Below, piece by piece: positions 15,091 through 59,645 of a DNA stretch of 64,000 nt. The DNA lies in contig NZ_JAUSYS010000001.1 in assembly GCF_030817015.1 (NCBI RefSeq), positions 3,658,001-3,722,000 of the forward strand. The letters are read 5' to 3'. Position 1 is the stretch's first letter. The number at the start of each line of letters is the position of its first letter. The stretch is from Arthrobacter sp. V1I7 (GTDB taxonomy: Bacteria; Actinomycetota; Actinomycetes; Actinomycetales; Micrococcaceae). A program made the position numbers and the translations under genes. The notes beneath the pieces were generated by a model. That model saw only the letters and a program-made list of their open reading frames with translations, did not search any database and had not been told where the DNA came from.

Positions 15091-15130
15091 GACGCCGGAG
15101 CGGTCCCCCCAAGGGGAAAGCTCCGGCGTC
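15091..15130 (+). terminator. Terminator-like hairpin after the rpf gene
   Basis: GACGCCGGAGC (15091-15101) pairs perfectly with 15120-15130 around an 18-nt loop, 45 bp after the rpf stop. The following bases are moderately T-rich. Confidence 0.65.
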
Positions 15131-15189
15131 GTGCTGTTCTTTCGTCATGCTGTTTTTGGTCGTGCTGTTCTTGGTCATGCTGTTCTTGG
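15129..15189. repeat. Four-copy 15-16-bp tandem repeat
   Basis: Units of the type TCRTGCTGTTCTTGG occupy 15129-15144 (16 bp, divergent), 15145-15159, 15160-15174 and 15175-15189. They sit between two convergent genes, immediately after the rpf hairpin. A likely slippage product; reading frames through it encode only repetitive peptide. Confidence 0.8.
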
Positions 15190-15241
15190 TCGCGCGGTTG
15201 GCATGCGCCGTCCAGGCCTTGCCGGCCGGCGCCGGGGGACT

Positions 15242-28874: not shown

Positions 28875-31377
28875 CTACTTTTTCAGGCCCGCCCGACGGA
28901 GTGCTTCGGCCATGGCGGTGTTCGCGGGCGGCGGCGTGGTCCGCGGTTGAGCGGGCGTCCGGTGGGGCTGGGACTGCCTTCCGGCCGCCTTCTCGGCGTT
29001 GGGCTGCCGCGGCTGTGGCTGCGAAACCCGCGGTTGGGGAGCCTGCCGCCCCGGTTGGGGAGCCTGGGCGGGCCGGGCACCGGCGCGGTCGCCGGAAGAC
29101 GACGCGCCGCCTCCGGAACCTGCCGGTTCGTCGTCGAGCCTCAGGGTCAGCGAGATGCGCTTGCGTTCCGGATCCGCTTCCAGCACCTTCACGCGGACGA
29201 CCTGCCCGGATTTCACCACCTCGCGGGGGTCCGAGACGAAGCGGTTGGCCAGCGCGGACACGTGCACCAGTCCGTCCTGGTGCACGCCGACGTCGACAAA
29301 CGCGCCGAACGCCGCCACGTTAGTCACCGTTCCCTCCAGCACCATGCCTGGCCTGAGGTCGGAGATCTTCTCAATCCCTTCCGAGAACGTCGCCGCTGCG
29401 AAGGCCGGACGGGGGTCCCGGCCAGGCTTCTCGAGTTCGGCGATGATGTCCTGCACCGTGGGCAGGCCGAAGGTGCCGTCCACGAAGTCCTGCGGGTTCA
29501 GCGCAGAGAGGGTCCCTCCCTCCGGGCTGATCTTCGCCGCGGCTCTGATTTTCCGTGCCACCGGGTAGGCCTCCGGGTGCACGCTGGAGGCGTCCAACGG
29601 CTCCGCTCCCCCGGTGATCCGCAGGAAGCCGGCACACTGCTCGAACGCCTTGGCGCCCAGCCGCGGGACCTTTTTCAGCTCGCTGCGCTTGGCGAAGGGG
29701 CCGTGTTCGTTCCGGTAGGCCACGATATTCTCGCTCAGCAACGGCCCGACGCCGGCCACCCGGCTCAGCAGCGCGGGCGAGGCCGTGTTGACGTCCACGC
29801 CCACCGCGTTCACGCAATCCTCGACAACCGCGTCGAGGCTGCGGTCCAGCTTGGCGGCCGTGACATCGTGCTGATACTGCCCGACGCCGATCGACTTCGG
29901 TTCGATCTTTACGAGCTCGGCGAGGGGGTCCTGCAGCCGCCGTGCGATCGAGACCGCGCCGCGCAGCGAGACATCCATGCCCGGCAATTCCGCCGAGGCG
30001 AGCGCCGAGGCCGAATACACCGAGGCGCCGGCTTCGGACACGACGATTTTCTGGGGTTTGGTGTCCGACCCGGTGGCGAGCTGCTTGAGCAGTTCGGCGG
30101 CGAGCTTGTCCGTCTCGCGTGACGCCGTCCCGTTGCCGATCGCCACGAGTTCGACGCCGTGCTTCCTGGCCAGGCCCACGAGCGTGCGCAGCGCTTCGTC
30201 CCATTTCCGGGCCGGGGCGTGTGGGTAGATGGTGTCCGTCGCGACGACCTTGCCCGTGCCGTCCACGACGGCGACCTTCACGCCGGTCCGCAGTCCCGGG
30301 TCCAAGCCCAGGGTGGCGCGGTTTCCGGCCGGCGCCGCGAGCAGCACGTCCCGCAGATTGGCCGCGAACACGCGCACGGCCTCGTCTTCGGCGGCGGCGA
30401 ACATCCGGCTGCGCAGATCCCCGGTCAGCCGGGCCAGCACCCGTGAACGCCACGCCAGCTGCGCGGTCTGCAGCAGCCACGCGTCGGCGCGGCCGGCCGC
30501 GGTCGGCCACCCCGAGGAACCTGGCCACGGCGGCTTCGTACCGGCCGCGGGCGGCGGTGAGGGCGGCGTCGTCGTTCGGTTCAGCCTCGGCGAGATCCAG
30601 CTCCAGCACGCCGTCCTTCTCGCCACGCAACAGCGCCAGGACGCGGTGCGAGGGCATCCCGGACGGTTGCTGGGAGAACTCGAAGTAGTCCTTGAACTTC
30701 TGGCCCTCGGCTTCCTTGCCATTCTTGACGCGCGACACCATCCGGCCCTGCGTCCAGAGCCGCTCCCGCAGCGTCGCGGCCAGATCCGCATCCTGCGCGG
30801 CCCGTTCCACCAGGATCGAGCGGGCACCGGCGAGCGCCGTGGCTCCGTCCCCGATGGCGTGCTCCGCGTTGAGGTACTTGGCCGCTTCGCGCTCCGGATC
30901 CAGCTCCGGACGTTTGAGCAACGCATCCGCGAGCGGCTCCAGGCCGGCCTCGCGGGCAATCTGGGCCTTCGTGCGCCGCTTGGTCTTGAATGGCAGGTAG
31001 ATGTCCTCAAGCCGGGACTTCGTGTCGGCACCGACGACGGCGGCCTGCAGTTCCGGGGTCAGCTGGCCCTGCGCGGCGATCGCTTCCAGAACGGTGCGCC
31101 GGCGGTCTTCGAGCTCGCGGAGATAGCGCAGCCGCTCCTCAAGGTCGCGGAGCTGGGTGTCGTCCAGCGTGCCGGTGGCTTCCTTGCGGTAACGGGCAAT
31201 GAACGGGACCGTGGATCCGGCGTCGAGCAAGTCCACGGCAGCCTTGACCTGCCACGCCTGGACGCCGAGTTCGTCGGCGATCTGCGCGGCGATGCCGGTT
31301 TCCTGGGTCTGCGGCGTGGAGGCCTTCGGCGAAGGGGTGGAGGCGGGTGTGGCGGGGGGCTGCGGGAGTTGGGTCAC
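28875..31377 (-). pseudogene. tex: Tex-type S1 RNA-binding protein, interrupted by one frameshift
   Basis: Both halves are well preserved. The N-terminal half (from GTG at 31377: IAAQIADELGVQAWQVKAAVDLLDAGSTVPFIARYRKEATG) carries the Tex_N helices to about position 30520. The C-terminal half follows in another frame with the YqgF/RuvC-like block ([20 protein letters not shown]), helix-hairpin-helix repeats, the S1 domain ([28 protein letters not shown]) and a Pro/Gln tail. The span is 3n+1. The break lies in a GC-rich run near 30490-30520 where GVADRGR should continue to ADAWLLQ. Tex is widely conserved, so a sequencing error is as likely as true loss. Confidence 0.8.
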
Positions 31378-31534: not shown

Positions 31535-34500
31535 GTGTTTTTTCTTGAACCGGAGGTGCCGGGCTCCGGACCGGATCTGGTCTTTTCCGCGAGCGACCTG
31601 GTGATCGCGGCCAGCTGCGAGTACCAGCTGCTCCGGAAACTCGACGAGCGGCTGGGCCGCTCCCCCAGACCGGATTTCGGCGTCGACGAGATGCTTGAGC
31701 ACGCGGCCAGGCTGGGCGACGTCCACGAGCGCAAAGTCCTGGACGCTTTCGTCAAGGAGTTCGGGCTGTGGGATCCCTTGTCCCGGCGGGGCGTGTACGA
31801 CGTCGTCCCGGCCCAGCGCATGGACCGCGCCACCCTGCTGGCGAAGCACCATGAGTCCATTGAAGCGCTGCGGTCAGGAGCGGACGTCGTGTTCCAGGCG
31901 GCCTTCTTTGACGGCCGGTTCCATGGGCGCTCCGACTTCCTGGTGCGACAGGCTGATGGAAGCTATGCCGTGTTCGACACCAAGCTGGCCCGCCACGCGA
32001 AGGTGACGGCCCTGCTCCAGCTGGCCGCCTACGGTGACCAGCTCCTCCAGGCCGGGATCACCCCCGACCCTGCCGTGACACTGGTCCTCGGAGCCACCGT
32101 TCCACTGCCGGGCGGCGGTTTCGACTACGTCCGCAGCCACCACAAACTCGCCGAAATCCTGCCGGTGTTCCGCGAACGCCGGGAGCGCTTCCTCGCCCTG
32201 ACCTCCGCGCACGTCGCGCAGCCCGGCACCGTCCGCTGGGGCGAAGCGGGCATCACCGCCTGCGGCCGCTGCGACTACTGCCAGGAGATGGTCAAGGCCA
32301 CGGACGATCTGCTCCTGGTGGCCCGGATGAACTCCGCGCAACGCAAGGCCCTCCGCGCATCAGGCATCTCCACCGTTCAGGAACTGGCTCAGGCCGCTCT
32401 CCCGGATGCGAGCGCCGCCCTCCGGCGCCTGCAGGAGCAGGCCCGGATGCAGAGCGGGCTCGGCGGCGCCGACGGCGGCGTGCGGTACGTCAAGGACGGC
32501 GAGGAGCATTCGCTCAGGTACGCGGTCATCCCCGAAAACAGCCTGGCCGAGCTCCCTGTCCCCAGCGAAGGCGACATCTTCTTCGACTTCGAGGGCGACC
32601 CGCTGTGGCAGGAAAGCGCCACCGGCGTCTGGGGCCTGGAGTACCTGTTCGGTGTCATCGAAGCGCCTACCAAAGCCGGTGCCCACGGCGTATTCAAGCC
32701 GTTCTGGGCGCATAGCCGGGAAGCGGAGAAGCAGGCCTTCCTGGACTTCCTCGCCTATGTGGAGAAGCGCCGGCAGGAGTACCCCGACATGCACGTCTAC
32801 CACTACGCCGCGTATGAGAAGACTGCCTTGCGCAAGCTGTCCGTGATGCACGTGGCGGGCGAGGACACCGTGGACCAGTGGCTCCGCGACGGGCTTCTGG
32901 TGGACCTGTACCAGACCGTCCGGAACAGCATCCGCATCTCCGAGAATTCCTACAGCATCAAGAAACTTGAGCCGCTCTACATGGGGCAGAACCTCCGTTC
33001 CGGGGAGGTAAAAGACGCCGGCGCCTCCGTGGTTGCCTATGCCCACTACTGCGAGGCGCGCGACAACGGTCGTCCCGCGGAGGCGGACAAAATCCTTGCC
33101 GGGATCTCGGACTACAACGAGTACGACTGCCTGTCCACGCTCGAGCTCCGGAACTGGCTCCTGGGCCTGGCGCAGGACCGCGGGATCTCGGCCGGCGGTC
33201 AGGGCGGCCGCGCCGGGGCCGGCGGTCAGGTCGGCCGCGCGGGGGCCGACGTCTCCCCGAGCGCCGGGACTTCGACCGGATCTGACCACGAAGACCGGGG
33301 AACCGACGTTGCCCTGAGCCCGGCCGAACTCGCACTGACGGAGTTCGCCGCGCCGGGGACCGGTCTGCCGGAGGACGACCGGAAGGCTGTAGCAATGCTA
33401 GCGGCGGCCGTGAGTTATCACCGCCGGGAGCGCAAGGCGTTTTGGTGGGCGCACTTCGACCGCTGCGAGCAGGGCCCCGATACCCATGTCCGGGACAGAA
33501 ACGTCTTCCTCGTCGAATCCGCCGAGATACTGGACGGCTGGCGGCAGGAAGGCACTAAACTCCCCGAACGTCGGGTCAAACTGACTGGCACCGTGAGCCC
33601 GGGCTCCGATCTGCGCGTCGGCAGCAAATGGTTCCGGATGTACGACCGCCCGCTTCCTGCCGGGCTGGAGGGAACCGGGAAGGACGGAACCGGACGCAAC
33701 GGTTGGTTCGGGACGGAAGTCCTGGAGCTGGGACACGAGGACGGCAGTGACACCGTCATCATCCGAGACCGGCTGCACCGGAAGGTGTCACCCCACAATG
33801 ATCTCCCCATCGCCTTGACGGAGGACCAGCCGCTCGCGACCAAGAGCCTCGAGGACTCGTTGGCTTCTCTGGCTGACAAAGTGGCGGCTGGCCTGGGATC
33901 CTCGGTGATTCCCCGTCATCCCGCGCTGGATCTCGTCCGACGCCTGCCGCCACGGCTGGTTACCGGACACTCGTTGCCGCAGCCCGGTGCGGGGCCGGAC
34001 CGTTTCATAGATGTCATTACCGAGGCTGTCCTGCACCTGGATCACTCGTACCTGGCGGTGCAGGGACCTCCCGGCACCGGCAAGACCCATGTGGGTTCCC
34101 ACGTCATCGCACGGCTGGTTGCCCGCGGCTGGAAGGTCGGCGTCGTGGGCCAGTCCCACGCTGTCGTAGAGAATCTGCTCAAGACTGCGGTGACCAGCGC
34201 CGGAATTGATCCGTCCATCGTCGCCAAGGAAGTGAAACACGCGGACCCCATCCCCTGGGAGCAACGCACAGCGAAGGACGTTGCCCGGCTCCTCGGCTCG
34301 CCGGGCGGGGCGCTCGTTGGTGGCACTGCGTGGACCATGACGGGAGCCAATGTCCCCGCCGGATCACTGGACCTGCTGGTGATCGACGAGGCCGGCCAAT
34401 TCTCCCTGGCCAATACCCTGGCGGTGGCGCAGGCCAGCAGCCGCCTGCTGCTGCTGGGCGATCCCCAGCAGTTGCCGCAGGTCAGCCAAGGCTCGCATCC

Positions 34501-35182
34501 CGAGCCTGTGGACGAGTCTGCTCTCGGCTGGATATCCGCCGGCCACGCCACGCTGCCGCCGGAATTGGGCTATTTCCTGGCCGACTCGTGGCGAATGACC
34601 TCCGCGCTGTGCCGGGCCGTGTCCGAACTGTCCTACGAGGGGCAGCTCCGGTCTGCACCCGCCGCCGAACTCCGGCGGCTTGACGGTGTTTCGGCCGGGA
34701 TCGAAACAGTACTCGTCGAACACAGCGGCAATATCACGTCCTCGCCCGAGGAGGCCTCGGAAGTCGTTCGCCAAGTGCGGCGGCATCTGGGGTTGCAGTG
34801 GCACACCGAACAGGGCTCGCGACCCCTGGGTGCCGACGACATCCTGGTGGTGGCCGCCTATAACGCCCAGGTCAACGTGATCCGCGACGCGCTGGAGGTT
34901 GCCGCCCTGTCAGGGGTCCGGGTAGGGACGGTGGACAAGTTCCAGGGCCAGGAAGCGGCGGTGGTGATCGTGTCGATGGCCTGTTCGGCCGTGGCCGAGG
35001 CGCCGCGCGGGATGGAGTTCCTGCTCTCGCGCAACCGGATCAACGTGGCGGTCTCCCGCGGGCAGTGGCGGGCCGTGATCGTCCGCGCCACGGAACTGAC
35101 GAACTACCTGCCAGCGCACCCGGAGGGCATGGAACAGCTGGGCGGCTTCATCGGCCTGTGCCAGCGCTCAGTGGCTTCCTGA
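31535..35182 (+). CDS. TM0106-family RecB-like nuclease fused to superfamily 1 DNA helicase
   Basis: A protein of 1215 residues from a GTG start preceded by GGGGG. The N-terminal PD-(D/E)XK nuclease has GRSDF and DTKLARHAK (about residue 148) and a Cys cluster (CGRCDYC, about 245), as in Fe-S-containing RecB-like nucleases. A central RNase-H-like exonuclease block follows (FFDFEGDP, about 351). The C-terminal SF1 helicase has Walker A (GPPGTGKT, about 845), DEAG (about 950), GDPQQLPQ and the final DKFQGQEA...NVAVSRG motifs. It probably processes DNA ends or R-loops. It is divergent from tex and its 3' end abuts the 35.2-kb repeat array. Confidence 0.88.
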   Translation: MFFLEPEVPGSGPDLVFSASDLVIAASCEYQLLRKLDERLGRSPRPDFGVDEMLEHAARLGDVHERKVLDAFVKEFGLWDPLSRRGVYDVVPAQRMDRATLLAKHHESIEALRSGADVVFQAAFFDGRFHGRSDFLVRQADGSYAVFDTKLARHAKVTALLQLAAYGDQLLQAGITPDPAVTLVLGATVPLPGGGFDYVRSHHKLAEILPVFRERRERFLALTSAHVAQPGTVRWGEAGITACGRCDYCQEMVKATDDLLLVARMNSAQRKALRASGISTVQELAQAALPDASAALRRLQEQARMQSGLGGADGGVRYVKDGEEHSLRYAVIPENSLAELPVPSEGDIFFDFEGDPLWQESATGVWGLEYLFGVIEAPTKAGAHGVFKPFWAHSREAEKQAFLDFLAYVEKRRQEYPDMHVYHYAAYEKTALRKLSVMHVAGEDTVDQWLRDGLLVDLYQTVRNSIRISENSYSIKKLEPLYMGQNLRSGEVKDAGASVVAYAHYCEARDNGRPAEADKILAGISDYNEYDCLSTLELRNWLLGLAQDRGISAGGQGGRAGAGGQVGRAGADVSPSAGTSTGSDHEDRGTDVALSPAELALTEFAAPGTGLPEDDRKAVAMLAAAVSYHRRERKAFWWAHFDRCEQGPDTHVRDRNVFLVESAEILDGWRQEGTKLPERRVKLTGTVSPGSDLRVGSKWFRMYDRPLPAGLEGTGKDGTGRNGWFGTEVLELGHEDGSDTVIIRDRLHRKVSPHNDLPIALTEDQPLATKSLEDSLASLADKVAAGLGSSVIPRHPALDLVRRLPPRLVTGHSLPQPGAGPDRFIDVITEAVLHLDHSYLAVQGPPGTGKTHVGSHVIARLVARGWKVGVVGQSHAVVENLLKTAVTSAGIDPSIVAKEVKHADPIPWEQRTAKDVARLLGSPGGALVGGTAWTMTGANVPAGSLDLLVIDEAGQFSLANTLAVAQASSRLLLLGDPQQLPQVSQGSHPEPVDESALGWISAGHATLPPELGYFLADSWRMTSALCRAVSELSYEGQLRSAPAAELRRLDGVSAGIETVLVEHSGNITSSPEEASEVVRQVRRHLGLQWHTEQGSRPLGADDILVVAAYNAQVNVIRDALEVAALSGVRVGTVDKFQGQEAAVVIVSMACSAVAEAPRGMEFLLSRNRINVAVSRGQWRAVIVRATELTNYLPAHPEGMEQLGGFIGLCQRSVAS

Positions 35183-35196
35183 CACCTTGGCTTCGG

Positions 35197-35721
35197 GGAC
35201 ATGCCCATTTCGTGGTCCCTCCGCGGGACATGCTCATTCCTTGGCCTGCGACCGAGGGACATGCCCATTTCGTGGTCCCTCTGCGGGACATGCTCATTCC
35301 TTGGCCTGCGACCGAGGGACATGCTTAATCCTCGGCCTGCGACCGAGGGACATGCTCATTCCTGAATGCGAACAGTGGGCAGAATGCCATTGTGCCCATC
35401 GTTCTTTGCCGCGGCGGGACATGCCCAGTCCTTGACCCAGCGACCGAGGGACATGCTCATGCCAAAATGCGAACAATGGGCAGAATGCCATGGTGCCCAT
35501 CGTTCATGGCCGCGGCGGGACATGTCCAGCAGTCGCCGTGGCCGCGGCGGGACATGTCCAGCAGTCGCCGTGGCCGCGGCGGGACATGCCCAGCGGTGAC
35601 CGTGGTCGCGGCTGGACATGCCCAGTCCTTGGCCCCGCAACCGAGGGACATGCTCATTCCTGAATGCGAACAGTGGGCAGAATGCCATTGTGCCCACTGT
35701 TCGCGGCCGGGGCGGGACATG
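35197..35721. repeat. Phased GGACATG repeat array with three hairpin modules
   Basis: Fourteen GGACATG copies begin at 35197, 35226, 35257, 35286, 35317, 35348, 35417, 35449, 35518, 35550, 35582, 35614, 35646 and 35715. Intervals are 29-32 bp, except three of 69 bp, where a 37-bp imperfect palindrome (CGAACAGTGGGCAGAATG type) is inserted. Upstream units read GGGACATGCTCATTCCT, downstream units GGGACATGTCCAGC. 35201-35260 is repeated with one mismatch. It fills the gap between convergent genes. A shorter copy lies at 46780. Confidence 0.9.
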
Positions 35722-35750
35722 TCCAGCGGTGATGATTCTTGTGGCTGGCC

Positions 35751-36566
35751 CTAATCCCGGTGGACGGCGTCCGCCGAGGGGAAACCGTCCGCCAGCAGGA
35801 GTGCCTCATCCAGCACCGTGCCGAAGTTCACCGGATCGTGCGCAAACCGACCCAGGAACAGGCCTGAGACACCCTCGAGCGTGGGCAGCAGTCCGGGCTT
35901 GGCGGAGCCGCCGTAGATGACCGGCAGCTCCGGCACCCCGGCCGCGGCGAGCCGTCCGCGGAGCCGTTGGACGACGTCGGACACGTACGCCGCGGCGGCG
36001 GGCTCCGCCGCGCCGATGGCCCAGACGGGTTCGTACGCGATGGTGAGCCGGCCCGCGAGGTTCCAGTCGCCGTCGACGGCGGACCTGATCTGGCGGTACA
36101 CAAAGTCCGCGGCGGGCGCCGGCTGGCCGGCGTCGCGCTCCCCCACGCACAGCAGCGGCGTGAGCCCGGCGTCATCCGCTGCCCGGACCTTGCGGGCCAC
36201 CATGGCATCGTCTTCGCCGAAGTGCTGGCGGCGTTCGGCGTGGCCGATTTCCACGAGCCGGACCCCGAGTTCCGCGAGCATGGACGGTGCCACCTCCCCG
36301 GTCCACGGGCCGTCCGCCCAGCCGCAGTTCTGGGCGCCGAGCAGCAGCGGTGAATCTGCCAGCAGCCCTGCTGCCGCGGGCAGGACGGGGAAGGACGGAA
36401 TGACGAACGGGACAACCCGCCCGGCCGCGAGAGCCGGACGAGTATCCACTTCGTGCCGCAGCCGCTCCAGCCAGTCCAGGCTGTCCCGGTATCCCAGGTA
36501 CATCTTGGTGCTGACCCCCACCAGGATGCGGGCGCTGGAGGTCTGGCTGCCGGGGCTCTGCTGCAT
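35751..36566 (-). CDS. lerI: Triose-phosphate-isomerase paralogue (probable L-erythrulose-1-phosphate isomerase)
   Basis: A protein of 271 residues of the TPI fold. The catalytic Lys is in STKMYLGY (housekeeping TPI has NWKMN), His in EIGHAERR (usually GHSERR) and Glu in AYEPVWAIG. These departures, and the location with a DhaK-DhaL kinase and RpiB, match LerI, which converts L-erythrulose 1-phosphate to D-erythrulose 4-phosphate in known tetritol and acid-sugar pathways. It is the last gene of the leftward cluster. The symbol is by family and context; glycolytic TPI would be elsewhere. Confidence 0.75.
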   Translation of the reverse strand: MQQSPGSQTSSARILVGVSTKMYLGYRDSLDWLERLRHEVDTRPALAAGRVVPFVIPSFPVLPAAAGLLADSPLLLGAQNCGWADGPWTGEVAPSMLAELGVRLVEIGHAERRQHFGEDDAMVARKVRAADDAGLTPLLCVGERDAGQPAPAADFVYRQIRSAVDGDWNLAGRLTIAYEPVWAIGAAEPAAAAYVSDVVQRLRGRLAAAGVPELPVIYGGSAKPGLLPTLEGVSGLFLGRFAHDPVNFGTVLDEALLLADGFPSADAVHRD

Positions 36567-37962: not shown

Positions 37963-38020
37963 CAAAACTCCTCTTTGAGTAAATCAGTTGAGTGAATCAA
38001 TGGAGCGAATCAGGAGGGTA

Positions 38021-38091
38021 GATCAGGTCAGCGAGGTTCCCTAGCGTGAATCTGGTGGGAAGATCAGGTCAGTGAAGTTCCCTAGCGTGAA
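38021..38091. repeat. 30-bp direct repeat before the MFS gene
   Basis: 38021-38050 and 38062-38091 are the same 30 bp (GATCAGGTCAGYGARGTTCC core) with two mismatches. The right copy contains the stop codon of the small membrane protein gene; the left copy is a spare of that 3' end. Confidence 0.8.
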
Positions 38092-46763: not shown

Positions 46764-46778
46764 AGATCCTATAGGACA
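46764..46778. promoter_or_regulatory. GntR operator-like site 2 at the regulator's own start
   Basis: AGATCCTATAGGACA shares the CCTATAGGA core with the sites at 45957 and 43437. It is five bases before the GntR start codon, overlapping the edge of the adjacent repeat array. Confidence 0.65.
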
Positions 46779-46779
46779 G

Positions 46780-46960
46780 GGACATGCCCACTCCTGTGTC
46801 CCGCGACCGAGGGACATGCCCATTCCTGGATCCCGCGTCCCAGGGACATGCCCTCACTCCTGTGTCCCGCGACCGAGGGACATGCTCATTCCTGGATGCG
46901 AACAGTGGGCAGAATGGCATTCTGCCCACTGTTCGTGGCTGCGGCAGGGCATGTCCCGCG
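46780..46960. repeat. Second GGACATG repeat array with a perfect hairpin
   Basis: GGACATG at 46780, 46812, 46844 and 46878 gives intervals of 32, 32 and 34 bp. A degenerate GGCATG follows at 46948, 70 bp on. In that last gap is a perfect palindrome: CGAACAGTGGGCAGAATG at 46899-46916, one central base, and its exact complement at 46918-46935. Units upstream of the hairpin are the CATTCCTGG type, the one downstream the CCCGCGG type, as in the first array. Confidence 0.9.
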
Positions 46961-54519: not shown

Positions 54520-54960
54520 ATGGCGGACAAGCTGACACCGGAGCGGCGCAGCTGGAACATGTCCCGCATCAGGGGCAAGAACACCAAACCTGAACTACTC
54601 GTGAGAAAGCTGCTGCATTCAAAGGGCTACCGCTACCGATTGCATGGCACGGCCCGCGGCGGCAAGCTCCCGGGCAGCCCTGACCTGGTCTTCGCCAGCC
54701 GCCACAAAGTCATCTTTGTCAACGGCTGTTTCTGGCATTTCCACGACTGCCGTGTGGGGCAGCACGCTCCCAAAGCGAATGCAGAGTTCTGGGAAACCAA
54801 GCGGACCCGCACACGGAACCGCGATGCTGAACAGCTTCACCAGCTGGAAACCTCAGGCTGGAAAGTGCTGACCGTCTGGGAGTGCCAACTCAAGGACCCG
54901 GCAATGCTGGAACAGCACCTGGACTCGTTCCTCCGAAACACCGAGCAGTCGCCGCACTAA
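54520..54960 (+). CDS. vsr: Very short patch repair endonuclease (Vsr)
   Basis: A protein of 146 residues with the full Vsr pattern: RSWNMSRIRGKNTKPELLVRKLLHSKGYRYRLH, PGSPDLVFASRHKVIFVNGCFWHFHDC (active-site Asp in SPDLVF and His) and a C-terminal GWKVLTVWECQLKD. Vsr nicks T:G mismatches made by deamination of 5-methylcytosine. No cytosine methyltransferase gene is seen in the window, but an McrBC-type system follows 1.2 kb downstream, so this looks like a small restriction-modification neighbourhood. Confidence 0.93.
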   Translation: MADKLTPERRSWNMSRIRGKNTKPELLVRKLLHSKGYRYRLHGTARGGKLPGSPDLVFASRHKVIFVNGCFWHFHDCRVGQHAPKANAEFWETKRTRTRNRDAEQLHQLETSGWKVLTVWECQLKDPAMLEQHLDSFLRNTEQSPH

Positions 54961-56170: not shown

Positions 56171-57397
56171 CTACCGGCTGATCGTGGCCTGCCGCACGAC
56201 TTCGCCCCAGGATTGTTGTGCAAGATCCGCCACGGAGGCCAGGATCTCCGCGGGCGACTTGGACAGATCCAGGGGAAACTCCACAATGTCGATGTCCGTG
56301 TTCAGGATCCGACGCAGCTTGATTTCCCCGGCACCCGGGTAGATGAGCCACGCCGTCGGGACGCGCAACGAGGTGCAGTACGCCAGCATCCGGTAATGGT
56401 CGCCGGAGAGTGAAGCCCCGACGTCGGATGCCGCCTGGTACTTCGCGTCGTAGACCATCACCGGCCGTCCGCCCAGCAGGTGCACGGCGCCCGGCTGCAC
56501 GATGATCCGGTCCGAGTCCCGGACGGCTTCGTTGAGCAAGGCGTTGTACCGCAGCCGCATCTCCCCCGGGAAGGCGGTCATGGCCTCCCGCAGTGCGACC
56601 CCGACGAAGTCCTCGAACACGCTGGACATGTCCACCACAAACGACGCCGACTGCTGCTTGCCGTCGCCGGCTTCCGCGGAGGCGTTGCGCAGGATCAGTT
56701 CGGCGAGCCGCAGGGCAGCGTGGTAGCGGGTATTCATCCGGCTGGCCCGCCAGGCCGGCAGTGGCGCACCGGACTGAAGGCGGGTCACGGCGGCGAGCTT
56801 CCCGTTCAGTTGGCGCAGCCTGCTGAGGACTTCGGGGCGCACCCCCGGGACCTGGGACATCCGCTCGAGCGCGGCCCGAAGGATCCGGTTTTCCGCAATG
56901 TCTTCGGTGAACTCGTCATAGGAGACCTCCAGCGGGACCAGCATGCCGGGTCGGCGGGAGATCTGGTCCGAGATCCGGATCCTGCCCTTGACCGTCCGGA
57001 GGGATTCGTCCACGCTCAGGTAGCCTTGCAGGACTCCGCGGCTGAGGGCGCGGTTCGCGAGTTGCGCCAGCGATTCGGCCAGGGCGCTCCAGAGGTCTGT
57101 CTCCTCGACGGCGGAGACGGAATCCTCGCGGAAGCCCTGGTCCCCCGCGTAGCCCAGCAGGAACAGCAGCCGGCCCAGCCCGAGTCGCTCCTTGGGCCGC
57201 ACCTCCAGTTGCACCGTCGGGGTGCGAACGGACCCGACTCTCCCGACGGGCTCGATTCGGTACAGCCCCATGCCCATCGGCGAGGCCTTCGCGAGCCCGC
57301 TTCCGTTGATGTAGGCCGCGCTGGCCGGGTCGAGCCGCTCCGCGACCCCGACGGAGAGCTCGTCCAGCACGATCCGGCGCAGCGAAGCCGCGCCCAT
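56171..57397 (-). CDS. mcrC: McrC-type subunit of a modification-dependent restriction system
   Basis: About 408 residues. Residues up to about 100 hold VRTPTVQLEVRPKERLGLGRLLFLLGYAGDQGF, typical of McrC N-terminal domains. The C-terminal PD-(D/E)XK nuclease shows GRPVMVYDAKYQAASDVG (D...DxK, with the AKYQ lysine) after an Asp-containing strand. The nuclease works only with the McrB GTPase encoded immediately upstream (TTG at 57427 is an alternative start overlapping mcrB; ATG at 57397 is given here). Confidence 0.85.
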   Translation of the reverse strand: MGAASLRRIVLDELSVGVAERLDPASAAYINGSGLAKASPMGMGLYRIEPVGRVGSVRTPTVQLEVRPKERLGLGRLLFLLGYAGDQGFREDSVSAVEETDLWSALAESLAQLANRALSRGVLQGYLSVDESLRTVKGRIRISDQISRRPGMLVPLEVSYDEFTEDIAENRILRAALERMSQVPGVRPEVLSRLRQLNGKLAAVTRLQSGAPLPAWRASRMNTRYHAALRLAELILRNASAEAGDGKQQSASFVVDMSSVFEDFVGVALREAMTAFPGEMRLRYNALLNEAVRDSDRIIVQPGAVHLLGGRPVMVYDAKYQAASDVGASLSGDHYRMLAYCTSLRVPTAWLIYPGAGEIKLRRILNTDIDIVEFPLDLSKSPAEILASVADLAQQSWGEVVRQATISR

Positions 57398-57413
57398 GGC
57401 GCGCGCGCCCTGG

Positions 57414-59645
57414 CTAGGCGTGCTCAAGGCGGGCGAGCAGTTGGTCCAGTCCGAACCGTTCCTCCAGCTGGGCCCGGCTGAGCTGGCCGTGATAGTGCTC
57501 CTCGAGCAGCGGCATCAGCTCGTACTTCCAGATTCGGCGCAGGCCCTTGGGGCTCTGGGCGGACTTCTTCATGAAGTAGGACGGCCCGATCATGAGGTCG
57601 CGGTCCCACTCATCGATCGCATCGTTGAGTGCGTCCATCAGCAGCGCCGGCGTGGTGTCCAGCTCCCTGGCCTGCAGGAAGCGCAGCAGCGAGCCTTTCA
57701 CCGGCTCGGTTTTGGGGTGCAGCTCGATGAAGTTGAAGCGTCGCCGGATGGCGGCGTCCATCATCGCGATGGAACGGTCCGCGGTGTTCATGGTGCCGAT
57801 GATGTACAGGTTGTCCGGCAGCGTGAAGGGCTCGTTGGGGCTGTACTGGAGATAGATCCTGTCGTCACGGTACTCGAGCAGGAAGTACAGCTCGCCGAAA
57901 ACCTTCGCGAGGTTCGCCCGGTTCATCTCATCGATGATCAGGAAGTACGGCTTGCTCTCATTGCCGGGTTTGGCCGCCTCCTCGGCGATGCGGCGCAGCG
58001 GACCGGCGACAAGCTTGAAGGACACCTGTCCCTCATCCGTCTTGTCCGGGCGGAAACCCTCGAAGAAGTCCTCGTAGGCGTACGAAGGGTGGAACTGCAC
58101 CAGCTTCACCCGCTCGTCGGTGGTATCGCCGGCGAGCTGCGCCGCCAAGTGCTTGGCCAGATAGGTCTTGCCGGTACCGGGCGGCCCGTACAGCACCAGC
58201 TGCCGGTTTTCCTCCAAGAGTTCCGCGATCTCCTGCAACGGCTCCAGGTCCATGTGCAGGGAAGCGGCGAATTCCGGAGTCAGCGGGCGGAAACCCTCAG
58301 AAGCGAGTTCGACGACGATGTCAGCTGCGGCGCCGTCGCCGGCTTCGGCTTCCGCTTCGGCCGGCAGGAGGGCCTCGAGCGACTGGATCACCCGGGTTAT
58401 GTCGACAACGATCCCCGAGGACGCCAGCTGCCGCTGCACGTGCCGGGGCAGCTCCGACATGCTGTGGGTTTCGTCGAACCAGCGGACCTTGCGGCGCAAC
58501 CGCCGGTTGTCCTGATGGTGTTCGGGTTCACCCAGGACAACGCCCACCCGTACGGTGCCCGAGCTCTGGTACAGGGCGAGGTCGCCGGGCTTCATCACGG
58601 TCAGGAAGGCGAAGACGGCGGTCTTGGTGTCCTCGCGCTCCACGTAGCTGAGGTGCTTGTAGTCCTCATCCACGGCGTGCTGGACCAGCCCGGCGGTGAC
58701 GCCCGGATCGAGCAGGCGGAGGTGTTCGACGTCGAGCGTCACCGTTTCATCGGCCTGCCAGGTGCCGAGCATGTCGGCGTTGTCCTGATGCGTGCGCAGC
58801 AGCCAAGCGCGGCGGCCGGGGTCTCCCACCTTGCGCCACTGGCTCACGAGCTGGCGGGAGTACCAGTCGATCCGCTGGCCGGCCTGCTCGTCCAGGTGCA
58901 GGCGGATGCGGTGGATGTCGGCCGAGATTTCCTCGTCGCTGTCCCCCTTAGCCCCGCCCACGAGCGAGGCAAAGGCGTCGCGGATTTCCTGGCGCTCGAT
59001 GTCGGCCACGACCGGCTCGAAGTAGCTCGGCCAGACCAGGAATTCGATGCTGCGGCGGATCGCCGGCTGGTCATCGGGAGTGCCGGCAACCAGCAGGTGG
59101 AAGGCCAGCGGGTCCTTGACGGCGGCGGCGACGACACCAGCGGGCCGCCGGGCGACGTGCTGGACGAAACGGCAGAGCCACTTCAGGTGATCCCAGATGG
59201 TCCAGTTGAACTCCGCGGTACGGTCCCGGATCACGCCGTGGTCGGTCATGCCCGCATACAGCTCGTCCGGAAGTTCCAAAGGCGGTTCCAGCCACGTTGC
59301 GGCCTCGGCCACCCGGGCGCGTTTCACCTTGAGGGATTTCACCTCATGGGCCAATGGAAGGGACTGAAGAAACAGCAGCTCAACTGCCAGTTGCTTGGCT
59401 CCCCGGGAAGCATCCGCCAGGTTCTCCCGGAGGTTGGTCATCATGGGCGCCTTGGAGTCCGGCACACCCCGCTCGAGGCGTTCCAGCAACTCCGCGGCGG
59501 CCTGCACCGACCAGGTTTTGGTGCGTCCGTCCAAGGCCGAGGCCTTGCCGTGCAACCCCGGCCCCAAGACAAACCACGCCGCGTCCTCAATCTCCTTGGA
59601 GATGCCGAGGGCGCGGTGCATGGCAGGCTTTTTGGATGGGGTCAT
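57414..59645 (-). CDS. mcrB: McrB-type AAA+ GTPase with PUA/EVE-like recognition domain
   Basis: A protein of 743 residues. Residues about 350-395 (GDLALYQSSGTVRVGVVLGEPEHH...RRKVRWF) resemble the PUA/EVE-like modified-base reading domains found before McrB motors. The AAA+ GTPase has Walker A (LYGPPGTGKTYLAKHLA, about 485), Walker B (FLIIDEMNRAN) and the McrB signature MNTADRS (about 620), ending DRDLMIGPSYFM. The first 350 residues are a long helical region without a name I can give. It would power cleavage of DNA carrying modified bases. Confidence 0.88.
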   Translation of the reverse strand: MTPSKKPAMHRALGISKEIEDAAWFVLGPGLHGKASALDGRTKTWSVQAAAELLERLERGVPDSKAPMMTNLRENLADASRGAKQLAVELLFLQSLPLAHEVKSLKVKRARVAEAATWLEPPLELPDELYAGMTDHGVIRDRTAEFNWTIWDHLKWLCRFVQHVARRPAGVVAAAVKDPLAFHLLVAGTPDDQPAIRRSIEFLVWPSYFEPVVADIERQEIRDAFASLVGGAKGDSDEEISADIHRIRLHLDEQAGQRIDWYSRQLVSQWRKVGDPGRRAWLLRTHQDNADMLGTWQADETVTLDVEHLRLLDPGVTAGLVQHAVDEDYKHLSYVEREDTKTAVFAFLTVMKPGDLALYQSSGTVRVGVVLGEPEHHQDNRRLRRKVRWFDETHSMSELPRHVQRQLASSGIVVDITRVIQSLEALLPAEAEAEAGDGAAADIVVELASEGFRPLTPEFAASLHMDLEPLQEIAELLEENRQLVLYGPPGTGKTYLAKHLAAQLAGDTTDERVKLVQFHPSYAYEDFFEGFRPDKTDEGQVSFKLVAGPLRRIAEEAAKPGNESKPYFLIIDEMNRANLAKVFGELYFLLEYRDDRIYLQYSPNEPFTLPDNLYIIGTMNTADRSIAMMDAAIRRRFNFIELHPKTEPVKGSLLRFLQARELDTTPALLMDALNDAIDEWDRDLMIGPSYFMKKSAQSPKGLRRIWKYELMPLLEEHYHGQLSRAQLEERFGLDQLLARLEHA

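Follow-up and report, generated by a model that had tools for sequence, protein, structure and literature searches.

What kind of sequence fills the gap between two convergent genes of Arthrobacter sp. V1I7 with near-identical GGACATG units, and does it work as RNA at the ends of transcripts or as double-stranded DNA? We approached this question from a window of 64,000 nucleotides (the whole stretch of DNA analysed, positions 3658001-3722000 of a 4.87-Mb contig) and extended it to the whole genome, termed G000, and to related genomes. The array in question (array 1, 35196..35728, assigned to neither strand) combines half-units with three 87-bp modules and is flanked upstream by a gene for a 1215-aa protein with RNase_H_2 and AAA_11/AAA_12 helicase domains (31535..35182, + strand, by our own gene call; the longest open reading frame of this nuclease/helicase gene starts at 31199) and on the other side by a convergent gene of the triosephosphate isomerase (TIM) family (35751..36566, - strand). 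GGACATG occurs 14 times within 35197-35721, as a preliminary description had it; the steps measure 29, 31, 29, 31, 31, 69, 32, 69, 32, 32, 32, 32 and 69 bp, and the octamer GGGACATG occurs 21 times in the window (13 of them within array 1) against 2.8 ± 1.8 expected from 100 dinucleotide shuffles. A coding role was rejected: several overlapping open reading frames run through the array, yet its units, being 29, 31 or 32 bp long, break the reading frame.

Along the array, five type-1 half-units (GGGACATGYYCATT or similar; 35196..35343, + strand), set 29, 31, 29 and 31 bp apart, are directed towards module 1 (35344..35430, +), which is also a covariance-model match. Module 2 (35445..35531, +) is joined to module 3 (35642..35728, +) by half-units at steps of exactly 32 bp (35517..35641, +), the first of which doubles as the right arm of module 2. 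A near-palindrome is present in each of the three 69-bp steps, as had been proposed, whereas the proposed meaning of that distance, one unit plus a hairpin, gave way to another: 69 bp is the outer-to-outer distance within a single symmetric 87-bp module. This module consists of an outer dyad (GGRCATGYCC), 29 bp, a core (GGRCA-11 bp-TGYCC), a further 29 bp and a second outer dyad, the core repeating the two halves of the outer dyad, GGRCA and TGYCC, at a separation of 11 bp, and the half-sites inside the module are spaced 29 bp on the left and on the right. Across 254 modules (250 distinct) from the source genome and others, the core consensus is TGGRCATA-N7-TATGYCCA, and the same module symmetry underlies at least five forward/reverse pairs of GGGACATG at 73 bp, at three loci or more, among the matches listed.

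Extra outer half-units stand in tandem, most commonly 32 bp apart: among 115 same-direction neighbours at distances other than 69 bp, 34 are separated by 32 bp, 14 by 40 bp and 12 by 31 bp. The 29- and 40-bp spacing peaks were rejected as tandem steps, being mostly outer-to-inner distances within a module in the examples inspected. The arm type that stacks in tandem is GGRCATGYYCANTCCT, and the type-1 tail of the outer arms (498 arms) was found on the module-facing side in 265, on the far side in 55 and on neither in 178. At 10.5 bp per turn, a 32-bp step spans 3.05 turns, in keeping with the idea that all units face one side of the helix, but the 29-bp (2.76) and 69-bp (6.57) steps do not agree with it, leaving strict helical phasing over the entire array 1 unsupported; sites keep largely one helix face inside tandem stretches and lose it from one side of a module to the other (69 bp, 6.6 turns).

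Elsewhere in the window lies a second copy, array 2 (46778..46960, +), in which half-units are followed by one 87-bp module with a perfect central palindrome (46874..46960, +). Our scan of the whole genome counted at least 29 arrays, which together comprise 68 modules (67 with an alternative finder), and a covariance model of the module returned at least 144 matches, which collapse to the same 29 arrays, among 150 candidates scored on both strands, with no match on the second contig. For all covariance-model searches, at most 75 or 150 candidates were scored per genome, on both strands, and E-values are rough. The proposed cassette of left unit, hairpin and right unit has its counterpart genome-wide, with an identical layout at the 29 loci and in other Arthrobacter genomes. 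The modules lie outside genes, with no overlap above 60 bp with a called gene and one overlap of 6 bp among the 68, and among 80 named loci a called gene sits between or over modules in 3 clusters. The octamer GGGACATG numbers 144 + 164 in a whole-genome search, versus 58 + 63 for its reversed control, and is by itself a poor marker because, in stretches of 400 kb each, module-free G001 and G018 still carry 20 and 9 copies (G010, 23 copies and 3 modules).

A gap-free alignment of 41 copies contains 17 invariant columns, and the module measures exactly 87 bp in all but 17 of the 144 covariance-model matches, though the model permits gaps. Information content averages 1.63 bits per column in the sites and 0.54 in the linkers (250 distinct modules); as the module finder and the scan of named genomes presuppose the geometry, this site information and the count of 69-bp distances (177/203) are partly built in. 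Columns 11-13, 32, 54 and 73-75, required by no finding pattern, carry 1.1-2.0 bits each. Local tandem duplication of an old sequence under no selection would be compatible with the differing module number of orthologous gaps within the group of genomes that we call clade A (e.g., 7 in G000 versus 2 in G010), but neutral drift would erode sites and linkers equally, whereas here the linkers drift and the half-sites are kept over 29 loci and several species, and the arrays favour gene ends (see below), so that this explanation is already largely refuted and we regard it as very improbable.

With respect to genes, 59 array gaps are convergent, 61 co-directional and 14 divergent, against 36, 158 and 109 background gaps, a bias towards gene ends for which the Fisher p of 1.8e-15 (convergent versus divergent) is too favourable, since orthologous gaps from several species were counted repeatedly. 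These counts cover 134 of 145 array clusters (8 had no called gene on one side, and 3 with a gene between or over modules were dropped), and the background comprises gaps of 100-1200 bp from the same stretches, with positions and orientations from our own simple gene caller. In co-directional gaps, arrays lie a median of 56 bp past the stop of the upstream gene and 164 bp before the start of the downstream gene. The source genome alone has 10 convergent, 12 co-directional and 7 divergent arrays, and these 7 of 29 count against the DNA-site reading favoured below.

Such a location invites an RNA interpretation, in which the element acts at mRNA 3' ends as a terminator or as a hairpin blocking exonucleases, and two genes bear on it from different sides. 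Downstream of purH, the terminator carries the GGACATG half-unit motif in 11 of the 12 genomes that have the element and in G018 (L193-L222, L365-L373), and the first half-unit pair there is a plausible intrinsic terminator, which supports the RNA interpretation and counts against DNA sites; G005 and 23 element-free genomes have a different, GC-rich terminator (ACGGCG or similar; by eye), with the purH ends of G004, G015 and G036 outside the comparison. Downstream of rpsA, by contrast, modules lie beyond the gene's own canonical terminator (by eye) in 9 of the 12 element genomes (G000, G010, G012, G014, G019, G022 and G031 by the finder; G024 and G143, missed by the finder, by eye); in G032 a module lies only past the following gene, and G005 and G163 lack modules there. 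At the same gene the finder gave no module in G018 and 16 readable element-free genomes (the G013 stretch is cut). A general terminator signature, comparable to inverted DNA-uptake sequences, was also considered and rejected, as the exact hairpin TGGACATG-N6..28-CATGTCCA occurs only 0-4 times per genome in 39 genomes, a rarity that likewise speaks against the RNA interpretation. Its purH copy is shared by G018 and 10 of the 12 element genomes; another match to this hairpin, 24 bp long, recurs in genomes both with and without the element. No terminator-like site was found within 35100-35800.

Selection on RNA structure would leave traces beyond the palindrome itself, which is real, with 69% of cells paired versus 37-43% when the arms are slid. 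Arm pairing beyond the consensus lies at the shuffle mean, with no excess, and permuting arms among 18 loci gave a null result for the whole linker, with less complementarity than expected in the outer linkers and marginally more in the inner linker (p 0.02-0.12 over three draws). G-U pairs show no excess (96 versus 110 A-C, in 92 distinct modules from co-directional gaps read along transcription), and orientation in co-directional gaps shows no polarity with transcription (26 versus 24, 45 undecided); in divergent gaps the arm polarity is 17 to 9, with 11 undecided. Folding of nine copies was uneven: several fold far better than their shuffles (z down to -9.0), while L092 does no better (z -0.1), and in array 1, module 3, the better-folding of the two modules folded, reached z -7.4 on the + strand while module 1 hardly rose above shuffles (z -1.7 on one strand, -0.7 on the other). 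A search of Rfam with the window and six array loci returned 0 matches at the gathering score, and a known Rfam family was therefore rejected. Compensatory change maintaining the stem beyond the consensus was not detected, the inner linker being marginal. The real palindrome (which a hairpin explains too), the marginal inner-linker signal and the strong folds of several copies count against DNA sites; since the complementarity, G-U and polarity tests were null, we favour double-stranded DNA sites for a putative protein over an RNA hairpin and consider an RNA element improbable. The earlier idea of a structured 3' element thus stands as to location, the arrays lying at gene ends, and not as to structure, for which the tests of selection were negative or marginal.

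How widely is the element shared? The search across Arthrobacter genomes that the preliminary description had called for revealed a patchy distribution within one genus, frequently at orthologous sites, and with the same layout in other Arthrobacter genomes the unit is neither confined to this genome nor randomly spaced elsewhere. Among 37 genomes of the genus, 10 have 31 to at least 75 covariance-model matches (both strands), G018 has 2 and 26 have none, and 22 genomes from other genera of the order gave no match. Half-unit matches in 120 genomes of the family numbered 64 in G000, 16 in G143 and 6 in G163, with none in three other members of the genus and 0-3, the chance level, in 114 genomes of other genera. 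A scan of named genomes yielded at least 120 stretches, and by their titles the 80 loci listed all belong to Arthrobacter or Pseudarthrobacter.

The distribution requires two changes of state on a purH tree of 30 genomes and five on one of 50, four of the five being forced by well-supported branches; the outgroup of the 50-genome tree is not monophyletic, as one of its 11 rows falls on the wrong side. G018, whose purH and rpsA sites have no modules, is sister to G024, and because G024 carries 73 matches the element was probably lost in G018. When the top-scoring arrays of each genome were compared by flanking genes, at least one gene was shared with G000 array neighbourhoods for 10/10 arrays in G010 and 7/7 in G014, G031 and G032 together, while in G012 and G022 only 1/9 arrays (rpsA) matched, purH being a further shared site. 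Given these shared flanking genes at orthologous gaps, inheritance within clade A is mostly vertical, and from clade to clade arrays may have been gained at favoured sites, exchanged or lost. A freely mobile element was rejected, as clade A shares orthologous positions and no match was found in phages or plasmids (one query) or in viral contigs (one exact pattern).

The patchiness, including the five changes on the larger tree and the contrast between G018 and G024, also speaks for the main rival to a host-used DNA site, namely a non-autonomous, REPIN- or MITE-like replicator copied by a putative enzyme, with host function unneeded. A candidate for that enzyme is encoded between typA and fdxA by a gene with AbiEi_4 (E 2.5e-06) and REase_MTES_1575 (E 3.4e-06, under the curated cut-off) domains (L156 3230-4039; L467 10562-11368, with modules on both sides), which modules bracket in all five element genomes with both flanks read (G000, G010, H16F315, SO3 and AL12), three of the five being drawn from the module scan and hence a biased sample. 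A close homolog lies in L306, and a copy in L253 is cut by the stretch end. The gene was not found at typA-fdxA in G018 or G017, in a comparison that covered three element-free or near-free genomes (G018, G001 and G017), each partially, with the locus unseen in clade B and G163. Between typA and fdxA, G018 has a short regulator-like gene and a transporter-like gene (L426), judged by sequence only. Against the replicator, an IclR-like gene is likewise bracketed by modules in G012 and G022, element-free G001 retains a 49% homolog of the nuclease gene with no modules, the Y1 transposase domain PF01797 was found in just one of the 12 element genomes, no phage, plasmid or viral match was found in the searches above, and the likeness of copies at one locus, set against differences between loci (68-90% in BLAST matches), points to local duplication. 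We therefore see the replicator as possible though rather doubtful, and the nuclease gene, its candidacy weakened by the G001 homolog, as a weak candidate for the missing factor.

Set beside known systems, the Arthrobacter palindrome arrays are a REP/BIME-like family; among the open-licence papers searched for Arthrobacter intergenic repeats, titles and abstract beginnings gave no earlier description, so the element does not appear there as a known one. In the portions available to us, REP sequences are described as 20-40 bp long with a preference for convergent and unidirectional gaps (PMC3733652), as best known together with RAYT transposases (PMC8049555, PMC3733652) and as lasting over long periods as populations of sequences (PMC8049555). 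To the extent of these portions, the likeness to REP, BIME and REPIN lies in extragenic palindromes that number from tens into the hundreds and often form arrays or inverted pairs, and the Arthrobacter family is palindromic, high-copy and extragenic with the same convergent and co-directional preference; the differences are the 87-bp length, the fixed 29/11/29 geometry and the polar tandem half-units, as opposed to 20-40 bp (PMC3733652, same portions). Unlike REP hairpins, selection on a stem is unsupported, and unlike REPIN/RAYT systems the module has no GTAG tag (column frequencies of 138 oriented modules, by eye). A RAYT-driven REPIN was rejected, as 11 of the 12 element genomes, including G000, lack PF01797. 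G032 is the one tested element genome with Y1 transposases (two PF01797 matches, L363 and L364). CGTC-tagged REPs are reported as palindromic repeats without a dedicated transposase in the part of PMC3733652 available, and they have another architecture, with no CGTC tag in the Arthrobacter column frequencies; a word search of that text found neither Actinobacteri- nor Arthrobacter. The RepRanger report (PMC12306157), in the part seen, lists Arthrobacter livingstonensis in one table row, where the automatic calls number 5,512 and 705, and gives no description of an Arthrobacter array element.

The ~30-bp period recalls CRISPR, whose exclusion in the preliminary description holds on repeat structure, since the linkers also repeat, over 29 intergenic arrays. 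In plasmid iteron arrays with inverted-repeat operators, direct half-sites in tandem adjoin an inverted pair built from that half-site, a layout like the present one, although the Arthrobacter arrays are chromosomal and occupy tens of loci.

We give an even chance to the reading that the arrays form a clade-specific, chromosomal REP/BIME-like family acting as double-stranded DNA through a putative protein. The preliminary description's idea of an ordered protein-binding array is plausible. From the strict spacing and conserved half-sites we infer a dimeric reader, to which GGRCA/TGYCC would be offered twice, abutting in the outer dyad and 11 bp (about one turn) apart in the core. A single such protein may nucleate on the core and then, if it polymerises, fill the outer half-units, which point inward and lie about three turns from one another, and the resulting complex would occupy the space beyond gene ends, where its function would most likely concern nucleoid or supercoil structure or a transcription boundary. 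A bolder version, which we think unlikely taken whole, treats the inverted core with inward tandem half-sites as a chromosomal site grammar so far unseen in bacteria: a protein dedicated to it and specific to the clade would read the sites, the arrays would persist at the ends of orthologous genes, and losing the protein would mean losing them all, amounting to a REPIN-like symbiosis under a non-RAYT factor, possibly the AbiEi_4-REase_MTES_1575 nuclease. A large, geometrically strict family that mostly lacks RAYT makes testable what maintains such repeats, and its wholesale presence or near-absence between close species (G024 versus G018) opens a comparison of gene content. To our knowledge few sequence-specific chromosome organisers are known in this group, and the binder, were it a nucleoid protein, would be one.

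The window contains further features in its own right. About two copies of a 41-bp direct repeat lie in an intergenic region at 38007-38091, and a tandem 15/30-bp repeat, GTCGTGCTGTTCTTG, lies at 15128-15199. A gene for a Vsr mismatch endonuclease (54520-54960) is followed ~1.2 kb on by a gene for an McrBC component with an AAA ATPase neighbour (56171-59621), a region that may represent a modification-dependent restriction island.
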